Part shown: one piece after another, positions 1,359 through 26,200 of the stretch
Position numbering within the stretch: position 1 is the stretch's first letter
Layout of the letters: the number at the start of each line of letters is the position of its first letter
From: Flagellimonas oceani
GTDB lineage: Bacteria > Bacteroidota > Bacteroidia > Flavobacteriales > Flavobacteriaceae
Reading direction: 5' to 3'
DNA length: 64,000 nt
Assembly: GCF_011068285.1 (NCBI RefSeq)
Contig: NZ_CP049616.1
Location: forward strand, 3,802,001 to 3,866,000
Program-made: the position numbers and the translations under genes
The notes under the pieces: generated by a model
What the model was told of the DNA's origin: nothing
The model's input: only the letters and a program-made list of their open reading frames with translations
The model's database searches: none

Positions 1359-3209
1359 ATGAAGCATTTACGATCCCTCTTTTTTTCGGCCTTTTTTGGC
1401 GCTACCCTTTTTTTAAGTGCGCAATCAAGCGACTGGCAACAGCACGTGGACTATACCATGGATGTACAGATGGATGTAAAGACCTATCAGTACACCGGCA
1501 CACAAAAATTGGTCTATACCAACAATTCCCCGGATGATTTAAATCGTGTTTTTTACCATTTATACTACAATGCATTTCAACCTGGCAGTGAAATGGACAT
1601 TAGGCTCCAAAGTATCAAGGACCCCGATAAACGAATGATGGAAGACGGGAAAAGCAGGATTGCATCCCTATCAGAAAGTGAAATGGGGTATCTCCATGCC
1701 GAATCGCTTACCCAAGATGGCCAACCCGTGACTTTTACCGAGGAAGGAACCATTCTTGTGGTTGATTTGGCCAAGCCTATTCCTTCCGGAGGAAAAACCA
1801 CTTTGGAAATGACGTTCAACGGACAGGTTCCGCTTCAAATCAGACGTTCGGGAAGAAACAGTAGCGAAGGCGTTGCGCTTTCCATGAGCCAATGGTACCC
1901 AAAATTGTCTGAATATGATTTTGAAGGGTGGCATCCCAATCCATACATAGCCCGTGAATTCCATGGCGTTTGGGGCGATTTTGATGTAAAAATCACCTTG
2001 GACAAGGATTACACCGTAGGTGGCTCCGGATATCTTCAGAATCCAAATGAAATCGGACACGGATATGAAACACCCGGCACAAAAGTAAAAACCAAGGGCA
2101 AAACCTTGACTTGGCATTTTAAAGCACCACAAGTACACGACTTTATGTGGGCGGCCGACCCAGACTACATCCACGACATTTATGAAATGGAAGGTGGCCC
2201 AACGCTTCATTTCTTGTACAAGGACAATCCAGAGTTCAATGAAAACTGGAAAAACCTACAGCCGAAAACGGCGGAAGCCATGAAATTTTTCAGCAATAAT
2301 GTTGGTAAATATCCTTATAAACAATATTCCGTTGTACAGGGAGGCGATGGTGGAATGGAATATGCCATGAGCACCTTGATCACCGGCGAACGCGAATTCG
2401 GAAGCCTGGTCGGGGTTATGGTTCACGAAATGGCCCACTCTTGGTTCCAGCACGTGCTTGCGACCAACGAGTCCGAACACGAATGGATGGACGAAGGTTT
2501 TACTTCTTTCATCAGTAGCTTGTGCATGAACCAGATCATGGAACAGAACAAGCAAAACCCTTTTGAAGGTTCCTATCGCGGATACTACGCTTTGGTAAAC
2601 TCCGGTCTGGAAATGCCACAGTCCACCCATGCGGACAGATATCCCACGAACTTTGCCTATGGCATTTCAGCTTATAGCAAAGGTTCTATTTTCCTTTCCC
2701 AATTGGGGTATATAATCGGGCAGGACAAGTTGATGGAAACCATTCAAAAGTACTTTGAAGACTTTAAGTTCAAGCATCCCGTTCCGAACGATATCAAAAG
2801 AACTGCAGAAAAAGTATCCGGCATGGAGCTCAACTGGTATTTGACCGACTGGACCCAGACTACCAACACCATCGATTACGGAATCAAAACTGTTGATGCA
2901 GATGGCGATAACACCAAAGTTGCCTTGGAGCGCATCGGTGAAATGCCAATGCCGTTGGATATCCTGGTCGTTGGAAAGGACGGAACACAGGAAACATACT
3001 ACATCCCATTGCGGATGATGTACGGTGAAAAAGAAAATCCATATCCAAACCTAAACCGCACTGTTCTGGACGATTGGCCATGGGCTTTCCCAACATACGA
3101 ATTTACCTTGGACATGCCCTTGGAGAACGTACAGGCCATTATGATAGACCCATCCCAACTGATGGCGGATGTAGATGGAGAAAACAACGTGTATCAGGCA
3201 GAGGAATAA
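1359..3209 (+). CDS. M1 family zinc metallopeptidase (aminopeptidase-like), secreted
   Basis: This 616-residue protein has a Sec signal peptide of about 21 residues ending at LSAQ. The gluzincin signature is HEMAH (H356, E357, H360) followed by the third zinc ligand E379 in DEGF, at the standard 18-residue spacing. The exopeptidase motif GGMEYAM (E334) lies upstream and corresponds to GxMEN/GGMEY of M1 enzymes. The N-terminal half is the beta-sandwich of M1 peptidases. The likely role is cleavage of N-terminal residues from peptides in the periplasm or outside the cell. It starts 3 nt after the S8 protease stop, suggesting a two-protease operon. A hairpin terminator follows. Exact substrate is unknown. 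Confidence 0.93.
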   Translation: MKHLRSLFFSAFFGATLFLSAQSSDWQQHVDYTMDVQMDVKTYQYTGTQKLVYTNNSPDDLNRVFYHLYYNAFQPGSEMDIRLQSIKDPDKRMMEDGKSRIASLSESEMGYLHAESLTQDGQPVTFTEEGTILVVDLAKPIPSGGKTTLEMTFNGQVPLQIRRSGRNSSEGVALSMSQWYPKLSEYDFEGWHPNPYIAREFHGVWGDFDVKITLDKDYTVGGSGYLQNPNEIGHGYETPGTKVKTKGKTLTWHFKAPQVHDFMWAADPDYIHDIYEMEGGPTLHFLYKDNPEFNENWKNLQPKTAEAMKFFSNNVGKYPYKQYSVVQGGDGGMEYAMSTLITGEREFGSLVGVMVHEMAHSWFQHVLATNESEHEWMDEGFTSFISSLCMNQIMEQNKQNPFEGSYRGYYALVNSGLEMPQSTHADRYPTNFAYGISAYSKGSIFLSQLGYIIGQDKLMETIQKYFEDFKFKHPVPNDIKRTAEKVSGMELNWYLTDWTQTTNTIDYGIKTVDADGDNTKVALERIGEMPMPLDILVVGKDGTQETYYIPLRMMYGEKENPYPNLNRTVLDDWPWAFPTYEFTLDMPLENVQAIMIDPSQLMADVDGENNVYQAEE

Positions 3210-3224
3210 GCGCTGTTCTTTTAA

Positions 3225-3262
3225 CAGCACAACAAGGGTGGCCGTTTGTGCCGCCCTTTTTT
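3225..3262 (+). terminator. Rho-independent terminator after the M1 peptidase gene
   Basis: A stem AGGGTGGC / GCCGCCCT (one G-T pair) encloses a short loop and is followed by a run of six T residues. It lies 16 nt after the stop codon of the M1 peptidase. Confidence 0.75.
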
Positions 3263-3282
3263 ATTAAGGAAGGGCTCATCCT

Positions 3283-3310
3283 TGTCCCCTTGAGGGGACC
3301 TTAGGGGTGT
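3283..3310. repeat. Left inverted repeat of the DUF559 unit
   Basis: The 28-bp sequence starts TGTCCCCTTGAGGGGAC and continues CTTAGGGGTGT. Its reverse complement matches 3743-3770 at 27 of 28 positions. It lies between the M1 terminator and the DUF559 ORF. Confidence 0.85.
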
Positions 3311-3352
3311 TCGTTGACCAATTATTCTTAATATATTTAGCTTTTGTGACCA

Positions 3353-4150
3353 TTGAAAAACAAGATTATTCCATACAATCCAAGGTTAAAAGAGTTCGCT
3401 AGGCAACTGCGTAAAAACAGCACGCTCTCTGAAGTCCTTCTGTGGGAAAAAATAAAACAGCGTGCTTTGGGGGTTCAATTTCATCGACAAGTGCCTCTCC
3501 TTGAGTACATTGTTGACTTTTATTGCCATGAATTACAGCTCGCTATTGAAATTGATGGGATATCTCATGAGTTCAAATATGATAAGGATGCAGAAAGAGA
3601 ACGTCAACTAGAAAAAGTGGGCGTACATTTGATTCGGCTACAAGATAGTGAGGTCAAAAAAAATATGTTCAGTGTTTTGATGACCTTAAAAGAAGTCATA
3701 AATGAAATGCAAAGTAAAAAGCCTGGTTTTGAATTAGAAATTACACCCCTAAAGTCCCCTCAAGGGGACATTTCCTTCCCCAAAAAAGAGAAGCTGACCA
3801 ATAAAAAACTGTTCGAAGCGCTCTTTACAGAAGGCAAGTCATTACATGTATTTCCCATCAAGCTCATCTATTTACCCGTTGATTTTAATGATGGCCCGCA
3901 GGTAAAAGTTGCGGTGGTCGCCCCAAAAAGAAGGTTTAAAACCGCAGTGGCCCGTAACCACATCAAACGACTGATGAGAGAGGCGTACCGGCTCAACAAG
4001 CCCCTCATTTTTAACAACATTGAAGGAAATTTTGCGTTCATATTTTTATACCTTGGCAAGAAGGCTCCAAGTTTTGATGAAGTTGAAACGGCCATGAAAA
4101 AGCTATTAGATGCCTTTATAAATAAAGAATCCCATGAAAAGATTGATTAG
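3353..4150 (+). CDS. rnpA: Fusion of DUF559 (Vsr-like) endonuclease domain and RNase P protein component
   Basis: This 265-residue ORF joins two families. Residues 1-118 are a full DUF559 domain, a PD-(D/E)XK fold related to very-short-patch repair nucleases, with the typical start (KNKIIPYNPRLKEFARQLR), YIVDFYC and AIEIDG. Residues about 141-265 are RnpA, with the family signature RNHIKRLMRE at 201-210. RnpA is the protein subunit of RNase P, which matures tRNA 5' ends. Linker residues 131-139 are encoded by a palindromic repeat. An in-frame stop at 3347 and no earlier Met make TTG at 3353 the likely start. The only later in-frame ATG before RnpA is at 3707. RnpA alone is usually 115-130 residues. 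Whether one fusion protein or an internally started RnpA is made cannot be told from sequence. The end overlaps the next gene by 17 nt. Confidence 0.9.
   Translation: MKNKIIPYNPRLKEFARQLRKNSTLSEVLLWEKIKQRALGVQFHRQVPLLEYIVDFYCHELQLAIEIDGISHEFKYDKDAERERQLEKVGVHLIRLQDSEVKKNMFSVLMTLKEVINEMQSKKPGFELEITPLKSPQGDISFPKKEKLTNKKLFEALFTEGKSLHVFPIKLIYLPVDFNDGPQVKVAVVAPKRRFKTAVARNHIKRLMREAYRLNKPLIFNNIEGNFAFIFLYLGKKAPSFDEVETAMKKLLDAFINKESHEKID
3743..3770. repeat. Right inverted repeat of the DUF559 unit, translated within the fusion ORF
   Basis: The 28-bp sequence starts ACACCCCTAAAGTCCCCT and ends CAAGGGGACA. It is inverted relative to 3283-3310 with one mismatch. Here it is read through in frame as the linker residues TPLKSPQGD between the DUF559 and RnpA domains. 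Confidence 0.85.
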
Positions 4151-7666: not shown

Positions 7667-7674
7667 TATTTTTG
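7667..7674 (+). promoter_or_regulatory. Bacteroidota -7 box TATTTTTG before the cytosine methyltransferase gene
   Basis: The octamer matches TAnnTTTG exactly and ends only 3 nt before the ATG at 7678. Transcription from it would start at or next to the start codon, giving a leaderless mRNA. No good -33 TTG is seen at the usual spacing. Confidence 0.35.
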
Positions 7675-7677
7675 GGC

Positions 7678-8925
7678 ATGCAACAACTTAAAGTCTGTGA
7701 ACTTTTTGCGGGTGTTGGCGGTTTTCGCTTGGGATTGGAAAGCACAAAACACTACAAAGTAGTGTGGAGCAACCAATGGGAGCCTTCCACTAAAATGCAG
7801 CATGCATCTTTGGTCTATGAGGCACGGTTTGGTGCCGAAAATCATTCCAACGCAAATATAGAAACCGTAAAAACGGAGGAAATTCCCGACCATGATGTAC
7901 TAGTTGGGGGCTTTCCGTGCCAAGACTATTCCGTTGCGACTTCCTTAAAAAATTCCAAGGGACTCATTGGTAAAAAAGGAGTGCTCTGGTGGTCCATTCA
8001 CCGGATTCTTTCGGAGAAGAAAAATAAGCCCAAATACTTGTTTCTCGAAAATGTGGACCGTCTATTAAAATCGCCCTCCAGCCAACGGGGCCGGGATTTT
8101 GCCGTAATGCTCCGTAGTTTGTCGGATTTGGGCTATGCCGTGGAATGGCGCGTGATCAATGCGGCCGAGTATGGTATGCCACAGCGCCGAAGGCGCGTTT
8201 TTTTTCTGGCGTATTTAAAAGGTACGGACGTTTATAAAAACCTTCAGAAAGCCAATCCTACCGACTGGATTTTAAGGGATAGTACATTTTGTGAGTCCTT
8301 TCCTGTTGAGCAATCCACAAAAAATCTTGTTGAATTTGATTTGGAAAAGGATTTGGTCCAGTTATCGAACAATTTCAATAAGGAAGAAGGGCTGTCCCCG
8401 TTCTTGAACACAGGGATTTGTATAAACGGGAAAGTATCTACCCTAAAAACTGCCCCTTCGTACGATGGCAAAAGAACCGTCCTCTCCGATATTTTGAAAA
8501 AAGGTGCCGTTGCTCCGGAATATAGTATTGACGAAGCCGACCTGCCGAAATGGGAATATTTAAAGGGGGCAAAAAAAGAAATACGCAAGACCAGCACTGG
8601 TTTTGAATACAATTACAGCGAGGGCAGCATGGTTTTCCCCGATGCCCTTGATCAACCTTCCAGAACTATAATAACCGGTGAGGGCGGCAAGTCCCCATCC
8701 CGGTTTAAGCACGTGGTCCAGACCTCCAAGGGACTGCGAAGACTCTTACCTGTTGAATTGGAACGGTTGAACATGTTTCCAGATAACCATACCAAATTGG
8801 AGGGCATTTCGGATGCCAAACGTGCCTTTTTTATGGGCAACGCACTGGTTGTGGGCATTGTGGAAAAAATAGGTGTTTCCCTGTTCCGGAAAATATCCGA
8901 ACTTGAAAAGCAACTTCAAAACTGA
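7678..8925 (+). CDS. DNA (cytosine-5)-methyltransferase of a type II restriction-modification system
   Basis: The 415-residue C5 methyltransferase uses S-adenosylmethionine to methylate cytosine at C5 in a specific DNA site. Motif I is FAGVGGFRLG (10-19), motif IV is GGFPCQDYS with catalytic Cys81, motif VI is ENV (124-126), and motif VIII is QRRRR (169-173). Motifs IX-X are RLLPVELERLNMFPD and GNALVVGIVEKIG near the C-terminus. The variable target-recognition region is about residues 190-325. ATG 7678 is chosen over an in-frame TTG two codons upstream because motif I then begins at the usual distance. The cognate nuclease gene follows immediately and overlaps or abuts it. Sequence specificity cannot be predicted from sight. 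Confidence 0.93.
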   Translation: MQQLKVCELFAGVGGFRLGLESTKHYKVVWSNQWEPSTKMQHASLVYEARFGAENHSNANIETVKTEEIPDHDVLVGGFPCQDYSVATSLKNSKGLIGKKGVLWWSIHRILSEKKNKPKYLFLENVDRLLKSPSSQRGRDFAVMLRSLSDLGYAVEWRVINAAEYGMPQRRRRVFFLAYLKGTDVYKNLQKANPTDWILRDSTFCESFPVEQSTKNLVEFDLEKDLVQLSNNFNKEEGLSPFLNTGICINGKVSTLKTAPSYDGKRTVLSDILKKGAVAPEYSIDEADLPKWEYLKGAKKEIRKTSTGFEYNYSEGSMVFPDALDQPSRTIITGEGGKSPSRFKHVVQTSKGLRRLLPVELERLNMFPDNHTKLEGISDAKRAFFMGNALVVGIVEKIGVSLFRKISELEKQLQN

Positions 8926-9511
8926 TCTTTCCAAAGAAAAACAACTGACGCCTTTACTGGATTCGTACTATCAAAAACACTTAAAGCATTATTGTTTTGA
9001 ACGGGTTTCCCATCTTAAAAAACAAGTACAGGGCATAGATCTTATCCTAAAGGATAAAGCTTCGGGAAAGCAATTTTTTGTTGATGAAAAAGCTCAATTG
9101 GATTACGTGAACGAAAGTTTGCCCACTTTTGCCTTTGAACTGGTGTATCACAAAAATGGAGTACAAAAAGAAGGTTGGCTGTTCGATGTTTCCAAAAAGA
9201 CCCATTTTTACGCCTTGGTGACCAGTATTTATTCAGATGATGAAGATGAGTTCACCAGTTGCAACATCACTTGGGTAAACCGTGAAAAATTGATTCTTCG
9301 TTTGGATGAATTGGGGTTGAATCAAGATAATTTAAAAAAATTGTCTTTCCAACATAGAGAAAATCATGGAAAACTGATTTTGGAACAACTTGACCCCCGA
9401 AATCAAGGCTATCTGTTCTTTTCCCGTCAGAACAAAGCGGAAAAACCCGTGAATCTTATTTTAAAACTGGATTTTTTGGAGCGGCTTGGTGTGGCGAAAA
9501 GGTTGGTTTAG
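8903..9511 (+). CDS. Putative restriction endonuclease partner of the adjacent cytosine methyltransferase
   Basis: The frame is open from 8873 (GTG) to 9511 with no in-frame ATG. TTG at 8903 gives 202 residues (LKSNFKTDLSKEKQLTPLLD), while GTG at 8873 gives 212. Either start overlaps the methyltransferase 3' end, implying translational coupling. The segment GIDLILKDKASGKQFFVDEKAQ fits a PD-(D/E)XK nuclease core, with Asp in GID and the D-x-K of VDEK about 15 residues later on the next strand. I infer a restriction role from this core and from its position directly behind a C5 methyltransferase. The family is not one I can name. A degenerate copy of the DUF559-associated repeat lies 33 nt downstream. 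Confidence 0.65.
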   Translation: MKSNFKTDLSKEKQLTPLLDSYYQKHLKHYCFERVSHLKKQVQGIDLILKDKASGKQFFVDEKAQLDYVNESLPTFAFELVYHKNGVQKEGWLFDVSKKTHFYALVTSIYSDDEDEFTSCNITWVNREKLILRLDELGLNQDNLKKLSFQHRENHGKLILEQLDPRNQGYLFFSRQNKAEKPVNLILKLDFLERLGVAKRLV

Positions 9512-15588: not shown

Positions 15589-15589
15589 G

Positions 15590-15660
15590 AGGCATCGAGC
15601 GGATTCGAACCGCTGTACAAGCTTTTGCAGAGCTCTGCCTAGCCACTCGGCCACGATGCC
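15590..15660 (-). tRNA. tRNA-Cys (anticodon GCA)
   Basis: The minus strand folds into a complete cloverleaf: acceptor GGCATCG/CGATGCC, D-arm GCC...GGC with GG in the loop, anticodon stem GAGCT/AGCTT, loop CTGCAAA (U33, anticodon GCA), and T-arm AGCGG-TTCGAAT-CCGCT. The discriminator base is U73, the main identity element for cysteinyl-tRNA synthetase. CCA is not encoded. Confidence 0.95.
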
Positions 15661-15735
15661 AAAGGGATCGCAAAGCTAAAAATATTTTATGAATATCTGG
15701 ATTGAAATAATCTAAATATTCATGCAACGATTTTG

Positions 15736-15807
15736 AGGCATCGGGTGGACTCGAACCACCATAAAAATCCTTGCGGGACTTTGTCTATCCAATTCGACCA
15801 CAATGCC
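15736..15807 (-). tRNA. Second tRNA-Cys-like gene (GCA) with aberrant anticodon loop, C33
   Basis: The minus strand folds as a full cloverleaf: acceptor GGCATTG/CGATGCC (one G-U pair), D-arm GTC/GAC with GG in the loop, anticodon stem AAGTC/GATTT, and T-arm GGTGG-TTCGAGT-CCACC. The discriminator is U73, as in the neighbouring tRNA-Cys. The 7-nt anticodon loop is CCGCAAG, so the anticodon reads GCA, but the near-universal U33 is C and position 38 is G. All other stems are intact. It could be a functional variant, a tRNA with a non-translational role, or an early pseudogene. It lies 75 nt upstream of the normal tRNA-Cys, in the same orientation. Confidence 0.75.
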
Positions 15808-17256: not shown

Positions 17257-20200
17257 TTATTCTCTGTATAATGTAAAGTGACCAACAAACTCTCTGTCGT
17301 CCTGTGCTCCCTCAAGTTGGACAACATACCAGTAATCTCCGGTAGGTAATGGATTACCATCGTAATTTCCGTCCCAACCTTTAATGTTGCGGGTCATCTC
17401 TTCCACTACTCTACCATAACGGTCATAAATCTTGATTAGTACGTCCGGGAACCCTTCAATGTTGTCAGGTATCCAAAAGTCGTTGCGACCGTCGCCATCT
17501 GGGGTGAAAAAGTTCGGGAATTCGATATCTATGAATTCCATAAAGATCTCCGCAGTGGCTTCACAACCGTTCTGATCTATTACGGTTACGGTATAAGTTC
17601 CTGTGCTACTAATAAAGAACGTGTTGTCCGTTCCATAGTCCACATCATTGAAGTAGAAGGTATAGTCTTCTACCCCGCCTTCGGCAATTGCCGTAATCTG
17701 GTTGATTGTTCTGTTCTCCAATGTCAATACCAAAGGTTCAAAAGCATCAATGGTAAAGTCATAAGTGGCCATACATCCATTGGCATGTGCTATGGTGAGG
17801 TAATGGTCGCCTGGGGCCATATTCGTAAAGTCAGCGGATAAATGCATATCTGCCGGGTCGGTGGAATCCAGGGCATACATTAGGTCACCGGCAATGGATT
17901 CATCTTCCAAAACAATGTTCAATGAATTATTGGGGATGTTTCCGGTACACTCGTACATGGGTGTAACGGTGGCAGCCAGTACAACACCTGGGTCTATTTC
18001 CACGATAACATTGGTTTCACAACCTTGGGCATCCCTGATGAATACCACATGTGTTCCGGCAGTTAAATTTTGGAACAAGGTCTGATCTTGCACAAAATTA
18101 GCATCCGCGCTACTGTTCAAACTGGTTTCGTAAGGAGCTGTTCCTCCAGAAATTTGTAGTTCGAAAGCACCATCGCCACTTTCAAAACATACCTCATCGA
18201 TAATATTGATGGCTTCTGCAACAATAGGTTCTGGTTGCTCAAGTTCAAATTGGAACGTCATGAAACATCCGTTCACATCTTGAGCAATGACATCGTAGAT
18301 ACCAGGAGCCAAATCGGTAAAGGTATTTTGGGTATCGAATCTGTTTAGGTTTGGTGAAATGGCGTATAAAATTTCACCTGTTCCACCCGATACCTCAACG
18401 GAAATGGTACCATCTTCCATTCCGGCACAGGTAATATCGGTAGATTCTTGTCTTTCAACCTGCAAAGGAGCTGGATCTTCTATAGGAATGATAGGAGATT
18501 CTTCAATACAATCCTCGCTGGTTACCCTAACATAGTATTCACCGGCCATTAGATTATCGAATCTTCCTGTGGTATTAGGTCCATCCACCAAATTACTGAA
18601 ACCGGGATCGTTGAACAATTCGTAGCTATAGTTGCCAAGACCACCCGTTGCACGTGCAAGAATAGTAGCAGTGGCTTCTCCGGCACAGTTGATAAAGGCC
18701 GCAGAATCGTCAATTTCCAAGATCAAAGCAGGAGGTTCTCTTAGACTGACCTGATTGGAAATCATGGCAGTACATTGATTGGAATCCCTCACCTCAAATT
18801 GATATTCACCAGCTCCCCGATTAAAGAATTCGTGATAGGTAGGATTATCAAAATCTATCCAAGTTGAAGTATCCTCATCAAAATATTGATAGGGAGCTGT
18901 TCCACCGGTTGCTGATAAACGCATGCTTCCATCGGTCAAACACGTTAGGTCCGCAAGTTTGATCAGAGACGCTCTTACTTCAGTTGGTTCCGAAATGGTA
19001 ACGGGGTCTGTTGTATCACTACAGCTCCAATTATCGGTAACGGTAATACTATAGGTCCCAGCACCTAAATTATTGAATATGTTGCTTCTTTGAGAGCCTG
19101 TGGTAAATATAATGGTAGTTCCTGTTTCATCGTAATAGTTCAATTGGTAATCATAGGAACCGCTGCCTCCGGTTACTGGATCCGCCCAAACGGATGCAGT
19201 TTCATCTCCAAGGCAATCCAATAAAGTGGTGGATACATTGATATCCGCTACTATTGGGGCTGGTGGTAACAAGGTCAGCGTTCTATCTTCAAAACAGCCG
19301 CCAGTATCGGTAACCCTAATCGTATAATCATCTGCAGACAAACCAGTGAACACATGGCTTTGTACATCATTGATGGTGTAGACCTGCATTGTGTTCATAT
19401 TGGTCAAAACAATATCGTATGGGGCATATCCGCCTACCGGAGCTACAAGAATTTCACCAAGATCATCGGTACAGGTGACGCTGGCCACTTGTTGTGGTGT
19501 AAAATCAAGCTCAGCGCTTGGTGAAACTATGGTCACCGTACCTGATGTGGCATCACAAAATGGGGTACCTGTCGCGGTAACTTCAACATAATAATTACCA
19601 CCGATCAAATCGGGGTGTGTTACTGGAAATGGACCTGTTGCAGTGTTTTCACTTGCGGATACGATAAGTGTACCATCGGCCCTGAACACACTATAATCGA
19701 AAGGACCATTGTAGTTGGAAACGGTTATGGTCAACTCTCCTGCATCATCAAAACACATCGCTGGTGATGAGGCCACGGCTTCCACATCGATAAGGTCGTA
19801 TGGCTCCACTCGGTGTGTGATAAATTCGTAGCATCCAGTACCGTTATCGGTCACCTGAATGGTGTAATCACCGGGATTTGGCAGTGTAAAGGTAGCCCTG
19901 TCCGTTGCTACGGTCTGGCTATCCCCGGTTTCCAAAACTTCAAAAGTCAAGTCGTCCGGAGTGGATTGTCCACTGGCTATAACCGTGATTTCTTCTCCAG
20001 TATTGCTACAGGTGATATCAACCACATTGGCTATGGACAGACTCATTTGTGGCAATGGATCTATGGTCTGTGTTGGCAATGGAAAAGTACATCCGTTGCT
20101 GTCTCTTACAACAATATCATAGGTTCCATCCAATGTTGTGGTATAGGTGAAAACATTTCCTCCGGTAGCTGTAAAGGCACCACCGTTGACACTATAGAAA

Positions 20201-23200
20201 TACGTTGGTGTTCCTGTTCCCGTAGCAATGGTCACTTCTATTTCTGCCTGTTGTGTTCCATTGTTAGCATCACAAGTCAATTGTGTAATGCCCGTTACAG
20301 CGGCATCTAGAGGTGCGGGTTCGGTAATTGTTATTTGATTTACGAGTTCACACCCTCTTCCGGAAACCACACGAACATCATAAACTCCACCTGGCAGATT
20401 TTGGAAAAAGGAATCGGGTTGTAATGGACGATTTACAGCACCTCCACTAATTGCGATGAGTTCATATTCGTATATCGGGTTGTCGGAACCAGGGCCCAAA
20501 GTAACACGTATTGTTCCGTCACTGTCGCCCGCACAGGTAACATTGGTAACGGCCAAGGTAAAGGATACAGGTGTTGGTAGTTCAAGTTCCACACTTGTAG
20601 TGGCACTACATCCAGATAAGGTGGTATCATAAACTACGGCATCATATAAACCGGCATCCAATCCATTGAATATATTGGATGGTTGTGCACTTCCCGTAAC
20701 GCTTAATCCCGTGTCGGGGCCGGAGGCATAGAACAGTTCATATTCGTACGAACCGGAACCACCAAATGCGGTAAGGGTAACTTGACCATCACCCATAGTA
20801 CAACTTGGCATTACTGTTGGCAATGCGGTCAGTGATATTGGTGGCTCAATGGTTATGGTCTGTGTATCCTGGCATCCGTTTACATCTCTTATTGCAACGG
20901 TATAATTTCCAGATGATAAATTGGTAAATTGATGGGTATCACCCGCATTTGCCATCGCTGTTGGTTGATAGGCCCCACCATTTAGGCTCACGGAATATGG
21001 ACCAACGCCCACATTGTCCAAGGTTACCGTAATGTTGAATGTTCCCTCGTCTCCAGCACATTGATTGCTGGTCAATGATATGGTTGGTGTGGGGTCGTCA
21101 TCTACGGTTATGGGTTTATTGACAATACATCCATAAGCATCCATTACATAAATTATGTAATCACCTCCTTCAACATTAACAGATGTATCGGTGGTCCATC
21201 CGGAACTAGTTGCGTCTGGAGCAGGAGCTGTATTCGGTAAATACTGATACACATAAGGAGCTGTACCAAATCTTCCGGTAGCTGTAATGATACCCATATT
21301 AGGGTTACAGTTATCGTTTTGTGGACTGTCAACATCCAAATCCAAAGGATTGGCGGATTGGCGAATGGTAAATGCCCCTCCATTTATGGAACATCCATTG
21401 TTGGGACCTCCAATTTCGGTAAGCAAAACATAGTACTCTCCAGGAGGAAGTAAACCAACATCTGTGACCGATACAGCGGTTGGTGGATTGACGCTTTCTA
21501 TTCCCGAGAAGCCTGTTGATACATTGGATTGTCTATTGAAAATTTCATACTCAACGCCAGTAGCTAAAGCATCGAAGCCAGTGAAGGAGAAAGAAACATT
21601 ACCATCAGCGGCACCTGTACAACTTACATTGTTTACGTCGGCCAAATTCGCCGTCATTAGTGAAGGAGTGTTGATAGGTGCAGCAGCTTCTTCAAAGTAG
21701 TAACAGTTGGTAATATTATCAAAAACCACAAAAGTATAGGTAATTCCAGGGGTAAGCCCGATAAAGGTAGCGGTACTTCCTCCGGACGTATCCGGTGCTT
21801 GATAGCTGCTGGAATATGGAGCTGAATACGTTTCCAATATGGCAAATTGGTAATTGCCCACCCCTACGGATGAATCTACGGTTACAACGGCTGTTCCACC
21901 AGAGGAGCAGTCTACGGTTGTAGTGCTAACATCAATATTCAAATCGTTCGGGGGTGATGCTATGATTTCCGTTGTGAATGAAGAACAGCCATTGGCATCT
22001 ACTACATCAATTTGATAGATTCCAAATTCCAACACGGTAAAGGTATGGTCTCTGGCACCTGAGGTCGTAGTATAAGTCTGAGAGGGCAATCCATTGTTGG
22101 CACTTAAAATATAGGTATACTCAGGAGTACCACCCGAGACACCTGAAACAGTAATGGAACCAGGGTTTGTGCCTCCAGAAGCATCACATTGTATTGGAAC
22201 ATCGGTGGTTGTATAAACAATAGGGTCTGGTTGAGAAATTACTACAGGATAGGGAGCCGATTCACAACCTTTACTGTCGGTAACAGTAACTTCATACGAA
22301 CCTGCAGGCAACCCTGTGGTCTGGGTTCCATAAACTGTTCCGCTTATGGTCTCTACTACATTTATGGTATATGGAGGCACTCCGACAGATGTATCTATGG
22401 TGATATCCAATGCCCCTGTAATTTCATCATGGCATAGGATGTCCGTAGGCGTTATGTTGCTTATCACAGGCGGGTCGGCAGGGGTTACAGTAACCGTATT
22501 GGTCTCGACCACACATCCTTCGGAATCGGTAACTCTAAATTGATAGGTTCCGTCCGAAGAGGTTGTATATGGAAAAGCCCCTGCATAAGGAGTGTATCCC
22601 GCTCCATCAATATTGACTTCGTAGGTATATGGTGGGTAGCCACCGTTTACGGTCAACCCCAGTTCGGCATCTGGATTAATTGTACAATCAAGGTCTTTGT
22701 CCAAGGACAGGTTCGCTGTCAATTGTGGCTGCACAACAATAGGAGTATCAATATCATCGGAACAACCATTCGCATCCACAACGGTAAAAGTATAGGTGCC
22801 GGGCACAAGATTGTTGAACGTATTGGAACTACGAAGCGGTCCGCCATTTATACTGTATGAGTAAGGAGCGGTTCCCCCGGAAACACCAACTACAACGGTA
22901 GCTCCTGTTGCGGTATCATAACATAGATCGGAGGTAGCATCAACACTTGCGGTTGGTGGTGTAAAGTTGTTCAACAGGAAAGAATCGGTCACCGGACATC
23001 CATTGGCATCGGTCACGGATACATTGTATGTGCCGGATTCATCCAGATTATTGAACACTCCTGTGGCGTTTGTGTAAGTTGTTCCGCTTACAGGATAGGT
23101 AATGGAGTAATCATATCCTCCCCATCCTCCTGAAGCTGTCAAGGTTACACTTCCATCCGTAATACAGGTAGGAGGTGTTTCAGTTATGCTCAAGGTCAAT

Positions 23201-26200
23201 GGTGCAGGGGGCGCTGCAATGGTAACCGTAGTGGTATCAACACAATTTGTATCGGTATCGGTAACCGTAATGGTGTAAGTTCCGTCCTCTAGATTGGTTA
23301 AAGAGATGGTTCCGTTGGTCTCTGCGGTTCCTGTATTGGTATATGCAGAAGGTCCGGTTATGGAATAGTTATAGGAGGTGTTGAATCCAGAAACTGTGAA
23401 AAGGGCCTCGCCATCAGCGGTATTTACACAACTGATATTGGCAGTAGCTTGACCAACCACACCAATCGGCGTTATAGGCAAAATGGTATAGGTTTCTGTA
23501 TATTCACAACCATTGGCATCAGTAACCCTAAATGTGTATGTGTCCGGGTCTAGACCGTTAAAGGTGGCGGTGTCTCCGGATACGGAATCGGCAGGTACGG
23601 ATGTTGGCGCAATTATTTCAAAAACAAAGGCTGCGGTCCCATCGGCCACTGTTACCGTTACGTCCGAAGTTTGATCAGGACATCCGGGAATTGTTGCCGC
23701 AAAGCTTAAATCTGATGGGGGATTTAACGGGGGTATGGTCACCGAATCGGCAAACGTACATCCGTTTTGGTCTCTTACCGTCAAGGTATAGGTACCATCC
23801 GTTAAGTTGCCAAAGGATTCTTCCAGTAAAGTACCAGAATCAGAAATAAAATTTATGCCATCAATACTATATTCGTATGGACCGTTGCCACCTTGTACGT
23901 TGAAAATTCTAACTTCTCCAAGTTGTGTACAGGTATAGTTTTGTACAATCTCAACCTCTGCGTCCAAGGCATTGGTCGGTGCGGATATGGAATGGTACTC
24001 GTAATAATCACAAGATGCACTACCTTTTCTTTGGTTGATGACCACTACGTAGTCACCACTACCAAGACCTGGGAAATTACCCGATGTATTGGTGGCCAAG
24101 GCATTGGCAAAGTCATAATTGTCCTCATCAAAGCCGGTAGCATCAAATAGATAATAGGTGAGTTGATACCCATTATCATCTACCAAATTAAAAGTAATGG
24201 TTCCGGTGGATTCACCGTAGCACAATACATCCATAACAGATGTTGCATTGTATTCCGCAGCTGGCCTAAATTCAATTTCAACGGGCTCAGAAAAGGCATG
24301 ACAGTTGTTTCGGTCCGTTACGATAAAAACGTAGGTACCCGCGCCTGCTGCACCCACAACATCAAAAATTTGTTCGGTCTGGTATTCGGACGGTGGAATA
24401 TCGGTTGGGTCGGGATATGAAATTTGTGTGACACCGTTGTTATCCACAAAGGACCAAATGGCGTAACGATGAGGTGTTTTGCCTCCGGAGGATGACATTA
24501 AAATGTTTCCTTCCCTGCAGGTAATATGTTGTGAAACCCTTGCATCAAGCTCCAAGTCTGCTTCGTCAAGAATGGTTACTTGTTCTGTATAGGAACAACC
24601 GTCATCGGTTGTTACTTCAACATCGTACACACCGCTGCTTAGGTTTTCAAAGGTGTGGTTATTGTCATCAGAAGGGCCAAGTGAATCCACTTCTTCACCA
24701 TCTTTGGAGATGGAATAGTAGTATTGTGGTTCCACATCCAGTACAGAAATTGATATTTCGCCCAGTTCGTTGCAGCTGGTGTTGACGGCTGTAATGTCCA
24801 CTTCGAAGTTCCTTTCGCGGATACCGATGTTGTCCAAAACAAAAACGCACCCATCGGTAACTCCCTGTTGTCTCATTTCTACCATGTAAACGCCGCTATC
24901 GGCTATATCAAAGCTGGTAGCGTTGCCGTAAGGAACCAGTACATTGCCCGTATTTTGATCTACAAGTTGAAACTCATAGGTCAAGGGCATATTGGTCACA
25001 GTGATGTTTCCTGGGTTATCGCAGATAATGTCCCTGGAGGTGTGTTGGGGATTTAGAGGGTTCTTATAGATGTTGAAATAAAATCTGCTAAAACATCCGT
25101 TTTGATAGTTGATGACCAATCTGTATTGGCCTGTGTTTTCTGCCAAAAAATCGTTGCCGGTATCGACCATGTTCCAGGTACAATCGGTATTGGTGTTGGC
25201 ACAACCATCAACGGATGCCCCGCAACTGGTCTCGTCCAGTTGTTCCCAAACTATGCTTGTGGCATCGGGGATGTTTATTTGGATGAGCTCGGTATCGTTT
25301 AATCCACAAAGGAATATTTCCGGAAGTTCACTACCATCGTTGGGGCAAATATCAATGGCGCCATCAATGGTGTTGGAGGTATCGTTGATCAATGCGGTTA
25401 TAGGGTTGGACTGTACAGAACCAAAAAGCTCCACATTGATTATTTCTGCAAAATCTTTACAGGGGTCTGCCACCTGTTTGTCCACAATATATGTTCCGGT
25501 TTCACCTACCAAAATGGTACTTGGGTCGTTGTCGGAATCACTGTCCGTGATCACGGTATCGGTACCAACATCTATTTGTCCGTTTCCGTTTTCGTCGCGG
25601 TACCAGATGTAATTATCAAAATTGTCACCTGCATCCAAGAGCACGTTGTCCCCACAAAGCTGAACGGTACGGGTAAAGTTACAGGCCTCTAGGTCGTCCA
25701 ACAAAAAGTTGGTAGCTCCTGGATAGGGAAATCCACAGCCATCAAAATCGTACACACTGGGGTCGTCGGTTATCGGCGCTTGATTTATTGCACCCGAATA
25801 GGTGGAATAGGCAAGGTTTTCTATTATATCGGTACAGGCATCTATAAAATCGAAGCAGTTTTCGGCCACTTGCACGCGCATGCGGATGGTTGCAGCTGGA
25901 TCATTTTCTTCAACATAGCGATCAGGTATGCTGAAAATTATGGTCCGGGTAGCCGGATCATAGGTATAGGTAACATCGGAAGGCATTATTATGCTGGACT
26001 CATCAAGGGTAACGTTAATGGGCAGGACATCCCTAATAGTATAGTTTACGGCATCATCGTTACCTACGTTTTCGAAGGTAAGCACATAATCCAGATATTG
26101 TCCCAAGTGCACTCCTTGCCCAGTGATGTCGTTTCCGGAAATGTCCTCTACGGTCTTACCAAGGTTTATTTGAGGTTCAATGATCTCAACATCCAAAGAG

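Follow-up and report, generated by a model that had tools for sequence, protein, structure and literature searches.

A Vsr-like DUF559 nuclease between inverted hairpin repeats at the start of rnpA in Flagellimonas oceani: a candidate homing-type unit

In a 64,000-nt stretch of the Flagellimonas oceani genome (hereafter the window), a Vsr-like DUF559 nuclease lies between two inverted hairpin repeats and is joined in-frame to the RNase P protein, RnpA. The analysis shows the anatomy of this unit, a match between nuclease family and repeat type, the occupation of the rnpA start within the genus, the decay and scars left there, and a recent exchange between two species. We consider it somewhat better than an even bet that repeat, nuclease and inverted repeat make up a homing-type selfish unit with its own REP-like repeats.

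Anatomy of the element and its fusion to RnpA

The preliminary description had placed a DUF559 coding segment between 28-bp inverted repeats of 27/28 identity, each with a 16-bp near-palindrome, and both repeats were recovered at those positions. The arms (3283-3310 and 3743-3770) are 28 nt each, are 27/28 complementary (96%) and are spaced 432 nt apart. Each contains GTCCCC-TTGA-GGGGAC, which as single-stranded DNA folds into a 6-bp hairpin. Folding energies were modestly better than those of shuffles, not clearly lower (z -0.86 and -1.79), and the hairpin is supported by the palindrome and by a single end pair with compensating changes (of 118 hits, 95 have G-C and 17 have A-T). The features of the locus are as follows.

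3283-3310, + strand: left repeat, hairpin plus TTAGGGGTGT tail, the tail aimed into the element
3353-3742, + strand: coding part of the DUF559 (Vsr-like, PD-(D/E)XK type) nuclease; PF04480 at 1e-27, fold matches 3hrl and 3r3p
3707-3709, + strand: in-frame ATG by the nuclease C-terminus, a possible start of nuclease-free RnpA read from the sequence
3743-3770, - strand (inverted): right repeat, the tail aimed into the element; + strand translation TPLKSPQGD
3771-4150, + strand: rnpA (RNase P protein), with the element's right end in place of the native start
3229-3801, no strand: exchanged tract of 573 bp, 2 differences (3526, 3734) from Allomuricauda chongwuensis

The DUF559 domain (PF04480, 1e-27) does lie between the arms, as had been described, but it is not a separate gene: the open frame 3353-4150 crosses the right repeat into RnpA (PF00825, 5e-18, residues 142-253). 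The translated right repeat and the RnpA fusion had been overlooked. A stop at 3347-3349 precedes the frame, the first start codon after it is the TTG at 3353, and an M1 peptidase upstream and an S41 peptidase downstream are the neighbours. The 265-aa DUF559-RnpA fusion product is a prediction, because the in-frame ATG at 3707 could start a nuclease-free RnpA; in nuclease-free relatives, starts are present in the stretch matching this region. AlphaFold modelled the fusion as two confident domains (mean pLDDT 84.2, pTM 0.48) with residues 126-141 below 50, and the repeat-encoded linker TPLKSPQGD between nuclease and RnpA is predicted to be disordered. Because RnpA at a relative's locus (L083) simply begins MDFSFPKKEKL, the right end of the element is placed at the native rnpA start codon. 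No Rfam match was found at the DUF559-rnpA locus at the gathering cut-off, and since the frame also runs straight into RnpA, the locus does not have the make-up of a self-splicing intron or intein. Elsewhere in the window, ARAGORN called two adjacent tRNA-Cys (gca) genes, at 15589-15660 and 15735-15807, the first of which alone passed the Rfam gathering cut-off.

The nuclease family and its repeats

The nuclease has the features of the Vsr/DUF559 family, namely the PF04480 profile, the fold and the conserved acidic and His residues. Foldseek returned 3hrl (7e-7) and the homing endonuclease I-Bth0305I (3r3p, 1.5e-4), which was also among the sequence relatives. We surveyed fusions in the best 120 of 270 protein hits plus the window's protein (121 rows). 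The catalytic-type residues E27, D55, E66, D68, H72 and D79 were each kept in at least 118 of the 121 rows, and the partners were RnpA (43), a threonine-dehydratase-like PALP domain (38) and CutC (1), with 39 proteins unfused; partners are under-sampled because the search admitted only lengths of 0.55-1.75 of the query. The PALP fusion was confirmed in L054 and the CutC fusion in P0041, and the linker is the translated repeat in many fusions. On the nuclease tree, for which two RnpA carriers (P0014, P0036) were labelled unfused (RnpA 41, unfused 41), 6 changes were counted for RnpA and 2 for PALP. The dehydratase fusions of Winogradskyella (9 loci, 36 pairs) revealed no excess nuclease similarity. 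Homing was rejected for these fusions on the 36 pairs, and they are read as domestication or old fixation; they evolve vertically with a constrained nuclease, and the nuclease may therefore have been domesticated there.

The 23-nt repeat core CCCCTNNAGGGGANNNTAGGGGT occurs 7 times without mismatch in the genome, 2 of these at the DUF559-rnpA locus. With at most 1 mismatch there were 7 matches compared to 0 for the backwards control, and with at most 3 mismatches 11 compared to 3. Among 299 sampled Flavobacteriaceae genomes, any DUF559 was present in 143, the core (at most 1 mismatch) in 32, and a close nuclease (E<1e-40, a cut picked after seeing a gap in the match list) in 21. The core occurred in 15/21 close-nuclease genomes compared to 17/278 others (Fisher p=3e-12); 6 of the 21 lack the core, and 17 of the 32 core-bearing genomes lack a close nuclease. 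Many core copies directly adjoin the nuclease gene with their tails inward.

From a collection search yielding more than 570 nuclease relatives, the closest 79 distinct loci were kept and scanned for a generic hairpin plus GGGG(A)TG tail, the tail facing inward. The results showed such repeats on both sides of DUF559 at 48 loci, on one side at 20 and on neither at 11, compared to 1, 20 and 155, respectively, for 176 other genes of the same loci. The preliminary description had asked whether the repeat flanks DUF559 genes beyond chance; in Flavobacteriaceae and at these loci it does (48/79 on both sides against 1/176 controls). Repeat clusters are common, since outward-facing copies also sit in the DUF559 flanks (left 20/79, right 26/79). 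One nuclease clade (L156, L157, L166) was missed by the inward detector, and the repeats flanking L166 read tail outward. Near-tandem duplications of the DUF559 unit were seen at L326 (G073; ~605 bp at 96.7%) and at L122 (two copies ~1 kb apart).

We also compared repeat type with nuclease descent. In some clades a distinct but related repeat, CCCCCTTTGAAGGGGG..AGGGGGATGT, occurs at loci named Bacteroidales, Calditrichota, Scalindua, Capnocytophaga and Empedobacter. On the tree of the 79 nucleases, which has many unresolved forks, tail type changed 4 times compared to 13.6 for shuffled labels (0/500 as low), the test covering 64 single-type loci (4 were mixed and 11 had no call). These results show that the nuclease family pairs with its own repeat type, a signal that genome kinship can produce in part. 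The same tail accompanies another hairpin at L122 and in one arm each of L136, L160 and L168. Scanning 48 loci with more distant DUF559 genes revealed several other G+C-rich palindromes, and several loci had none. At plasmid DUF559 loci of other phyla (7 of at least 36 records), clear flanking hairpin repeats were present in 4 (L301, L303, L304 and L305), a count made without a control set; the repeats of the Deinococcus plasmid locus match at 55/56 bases, and no matched repeat pair was found at L300, L302 and L306. In the window's genome, another DUF559 hit (L001) had no flanking repeat above shuffles, and a further hit (L003) matches the Pfam model in part and gave no hit to the locus nuclease.

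Occupation, decay and exchange among relatives

We assessed the rnpA site in 71 genomes of the genus (Allomuricauda by named relatives), all of which yielded rnpA. A close nuclease was present in 12 and absent from 59, and in 12/12 it was at rnpA; in G330 it lies ~1.5 kb from rnpA, with a long insert. Nine of the 12 copies are in-frame fusions and three are decaying (G313 and G354 with a shifted C-terminus, G330 in pieces). The repeat core was found in 12/12 close-nuclease genomes compared to 17/59 others (p=4e-6), and genus genomes also contain, at other places, DUF559 genes of lower similarity (at most about 52% identity). The rnpA loci of the 30 nearest genomes were read closely: 7 were fused, 1 (L084) was unscored and 22 were scored as nuclease-free. 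Of the latter, 14 carried a peptide scar before RnpA, with at least 5/9 residues of TPLKSPQGD (equalled by 0 or 1 of 200 shuffles), 2 were borderline at 4/9 and 6 had 3 or fewer; L079 retains a piece of the nuclease C-terminus. Judged from the sequences, the pattern at rnpA in the genus reads as insertion, fixation and decay.

The window was then compared with A. chongwuensis (G310), with which 59,189 bases align at 83%; in 100-bp windows outside the element, identity lies between 71 and 95%. The exchanged tract, which extends 54 and 31 bp beyond the ends of the element, holds only the 2 differences listed above. Among 1,119 windows of 500 bp, identity of at least 97% occurred only at starts 3151-3351, and the longest stretches with at most 2 mismatches in the 64 kb were 573 bp at the element and 165 bp next (binomial p ~3e-33 for the tract at 13.5% divergence). 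The dS was 0.015 for the nuclease and 0.687 for the adjoining rnpA. A weaker excess of similarity was seen for G317 against G338 and G339 (nuclease 0.115 and 0.151, rnpA 0.33), and little for G000 against G366 (0.525 compared to 0.632), so that one species pair alone shows exchange clearly. Nuclease dN/dS was at most 0.235 in pairs with finite dS. The element at rnpA appears to have passed recently between species; a tract centred on the element with short flanks is what homing would leave, and ordinary recombination there is possible. Separately, alignment with A. chongwuensis is poor or absent at ~19758-23709, probably a variable region of the window.

Five further repeat copies lie in the genome, each at a junction of same-direction genes and all in the same orientation relative to their neighbours: trpB/trpA, hisG/hisD, the end of prmC, ferredoxin/reductase and CoA-transferase A/B (gene names read from translations). 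These sites were compared in 20 of the 71 genus genomes, picked as near relatives. At hisG/hisD, of 19 other genomes 14 had a plain junction, 1 (G310) the repeat and 1 a different insert, and 3 were unreadable. At CoA-transferase A/B (20 genomes), a degraded repeat was found in 2, a plain junction in 11 and other inserts in 7; at the prmC end (14 genomes), the repeat in 4, none in 9 and another insert in 1; and at trpB/trpA (10 genomes), a plain junction in 4 and other sequence in 6. The trpB/trpA copy is an inverted dimer, flanked on either side by ATAGATA in the window's genome, a possible target-site duplication; the four plain relatives lack this sequence. At ferredoxin/reductase, matches span the site in many genomes and paralogues confuse the comparison. 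Among relatives, sites with and without the solo repeat thus both exist, as the preliminary description had proposed to check; it had named a missing link to DUF559 and sites that are never empty as grounds against its proposal, and we found the link and the empty sites.

Among 29 repeat-bearing genus genomes, 17 have no close nuclease, and G305 and G365 hold 16 copies each and G332 holds 9. Such numerous repeats without a close nuclease fit relics, and also another mover. Several gaps at these junctions hold other sequences. In the CoA-transferase A/B gap, a small gene in L234 (377-742) and L235 (365-724) matches PF05635 (23S rRNA-intervening sequence protein), and a gene in L238 (387-740) looks like it. 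The trpB/trpA junctions of L276, L278 and L283 hold a different, GTCATTCC..GCAGGAATCC-like repeat, which we take to resemble the CGTC REP type.

Known systems and competing explanations

An enzyme gene enclosed by inverted repeats of which further copies are spread over the genome is a feature of REP sequences with RAYT/TnpA_REP (REPtron, REPIN, BIME). The names REPIN, BIME and EDxHD, like the Rickettsia comparison below, belong in part to general background. The two systems are alike in hairpin repeats inverted around the enzyme gene, in intergenic scatter as singles, dimers and clusters, and in repeats that differ with the enzyme lineage. They differ in the enzyme, a Y1 HUH transposase there and a Vsr-like DUF559 nuclease here. 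The statement of the preliminary description that the partner is unlike the usual RAYT was borne out: the Y1 transposase (PF01797) had 0 matches in the window's genome and none in 13 of 32 repeat-bearing genomes. They also differ at the hairpin's 5' foot, where REP/RAYT repeats have a GT[AG]G tetranucleotide (PMC6006769); none of 90 distinct copies has GTAG or GTGG directly at the foot, and the preceding bases vary (118 hits). The CGTC end tag is not part of the repeat consensus (118 hits), and the TTTAGGGGTGT-type tail stands here on the other side of the hairpin. With neither the Y1 enzyme nor the GT[AG]G foot, the DUF559 unit is not of the RAYT/REP kind, and RAYT as the partner enzyme is ruled out for the window's genome by a search for the Y1 family alone.

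Among other systems, homing endonuclease genes commonly, not obligatorily, lie in introns or inteins. The free-standing ones of the EDxHD group (I-Bth0305I, 3r3p) are alike in fold, single site, decay, scars and short exchanged tract, whereas the unit here is without intron or intein, is flanked by scattered hairpin repeats and is in-frame with a host gene. Rickettsia RPE and intragenic CGTC/GTAG REPs (PMC3733652) are likewise palindromic repeats translated in-frame, N-termini included, but here a whole nuclease domain travels with the repeat, and the CGTC/GTAG tag is absent. Other DUF559/Vsr-like nucleases (3hrl, Caulobacter VsrA) share protein family and fold; the passages available on them describe a predicted repair nuclease or a protein without an assigned role and do not mention flanking repeats. 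Among the matches listed in open PMC full text, which leaves subscription journals and most preprints outside, no account of DUF559 paired with repeats was found. The unit belongs to a widespread repeat-plus-nuclease family, for which that literature yielded no description.

In the homing reading, the nuclease would nick or cut the allele without the element, empty or scarred, and recombination repair would then transfer a copy of the element together with some tens of bases on its flanks. The hairpin repeats would be the ends of the unit and perhaps its recognition sites, fusion to an essential gene would make clean loss hard, and solo repeats at operon junctions may be moved in trans by the nuclease. 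One site filled in some relatives and absent in others, decay, and short co-converted flanks in one clear case support this assignment, the step of target cleavage being putative. The preliminary description had proposed that repeat and DUF559 form a mobile unit whose nuclease cuts or moves the palindromes. The tie between repeat and DUF559 and the interspecies exchange of the whole element agree with a mobile unit, and the nuclease may act on the palindromes in this way, but homing at a fixed site is the better-supported role because in the genus the close nuclease is found only at rnpA and the repeats are scattered. Against a homing unit stand the restriction of clear exchange to one species pair, the dehydratase fusions without excess nuclease similarity, the many repeat-bearing genomes that have no close nuclease (17/32 in the family, 17/29 in the genus), the 6/21 close-nuclease genomes that lack the core, and the 11 of 79 loci without an inward repeat by the detector. 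A hydrolytic (PD-(D/E)XK) nuclease alone cannot join DNA ends, which also counts against it and favours an explanation in which another machinery moves REP-like repeats, two of which came to enclose DUF559, and the tract arose through homologous recombination by chance. We regard this explanation as unlikely, if the most serious rival. The wider spread of solo repeats than of the close nuclease and the single clear exchange tract speak for it; the flanking of DUF559 and not of controls (48/79 against 1/176), the agreement of tail type with the nuclease tree, a tract centred on the element with nothing like it elsewhere in 64 kb, and the lack of a RAYT-type Y1 transposase here and in 13/32 repeat-bearing genomes overall (Y1 family only) argue against it.

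It is less probable still, and in our view distinctly improbable, that the nuclease is kept for a host function (RNA or DNA processing) in a two-domain RnpA or dehydratase protein. The low nuclease dN/dS, the catalytic-type residues retained in fusions and the vertical inheritance of the dehydratase fusions would agree with such domestication, but an intact nuclease would be maintained by homing selection as well, it is broken in 3/12 genus rnpA copies and absent with a scar in 14/22 scored loci, and the near-identical interspecies tract is left unexplained. That the protein is a repair or restriction enzyme of the Vsr type, acting together with a cytosine methyltransferase and only incidentally flanked by repeats, is very improbable: a relative of the window's methyltransferase was found within ~3 kb of only 6/79 DUF559 loci, a count of linked pairs that leaves room for unlinked ones, and both the repeats and the exchange tract would go unexplained. 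In its favour are the functional link of the Caulobacter DUF559 protein VsrA to a solitary C5 methyltransferase (PMC12907096), a weak hit (7e-5) that PADLOC gave between the fusion and a methyl-directed type II enzyme, and a C5 cytosine methyltransferase in the window at 7672-8925 (PF00145; PADLOC MTase_II 2e-171). A 212-aa frame at 8873-9511, without Pfam or PADLOC match, overlaps this methyltransferase and is possibly a restriction partner.

Extending the homing-type unit, we tentatively propose, at rather less than even confidence, an undescribed, multi-phylum class of mobile element made up of Vsr-like DUF559 nucleases with cognate hairpin-plus-tail repeats, in which the nuclease would home the unit and spread repeats in trans, and taking the start of an essential gene into the unit's frame would guard against loss. 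In the homing-type reading, a REP-like repeat has as its statistical partner a nuclease family other than Y1, and the signature of homing is open to test; repeats also become protein linkers between a selfish gene and host genes such as that of RnpA. If true, it suggests a role for many genes labelled just 'endonuclease domain-containing protein'.
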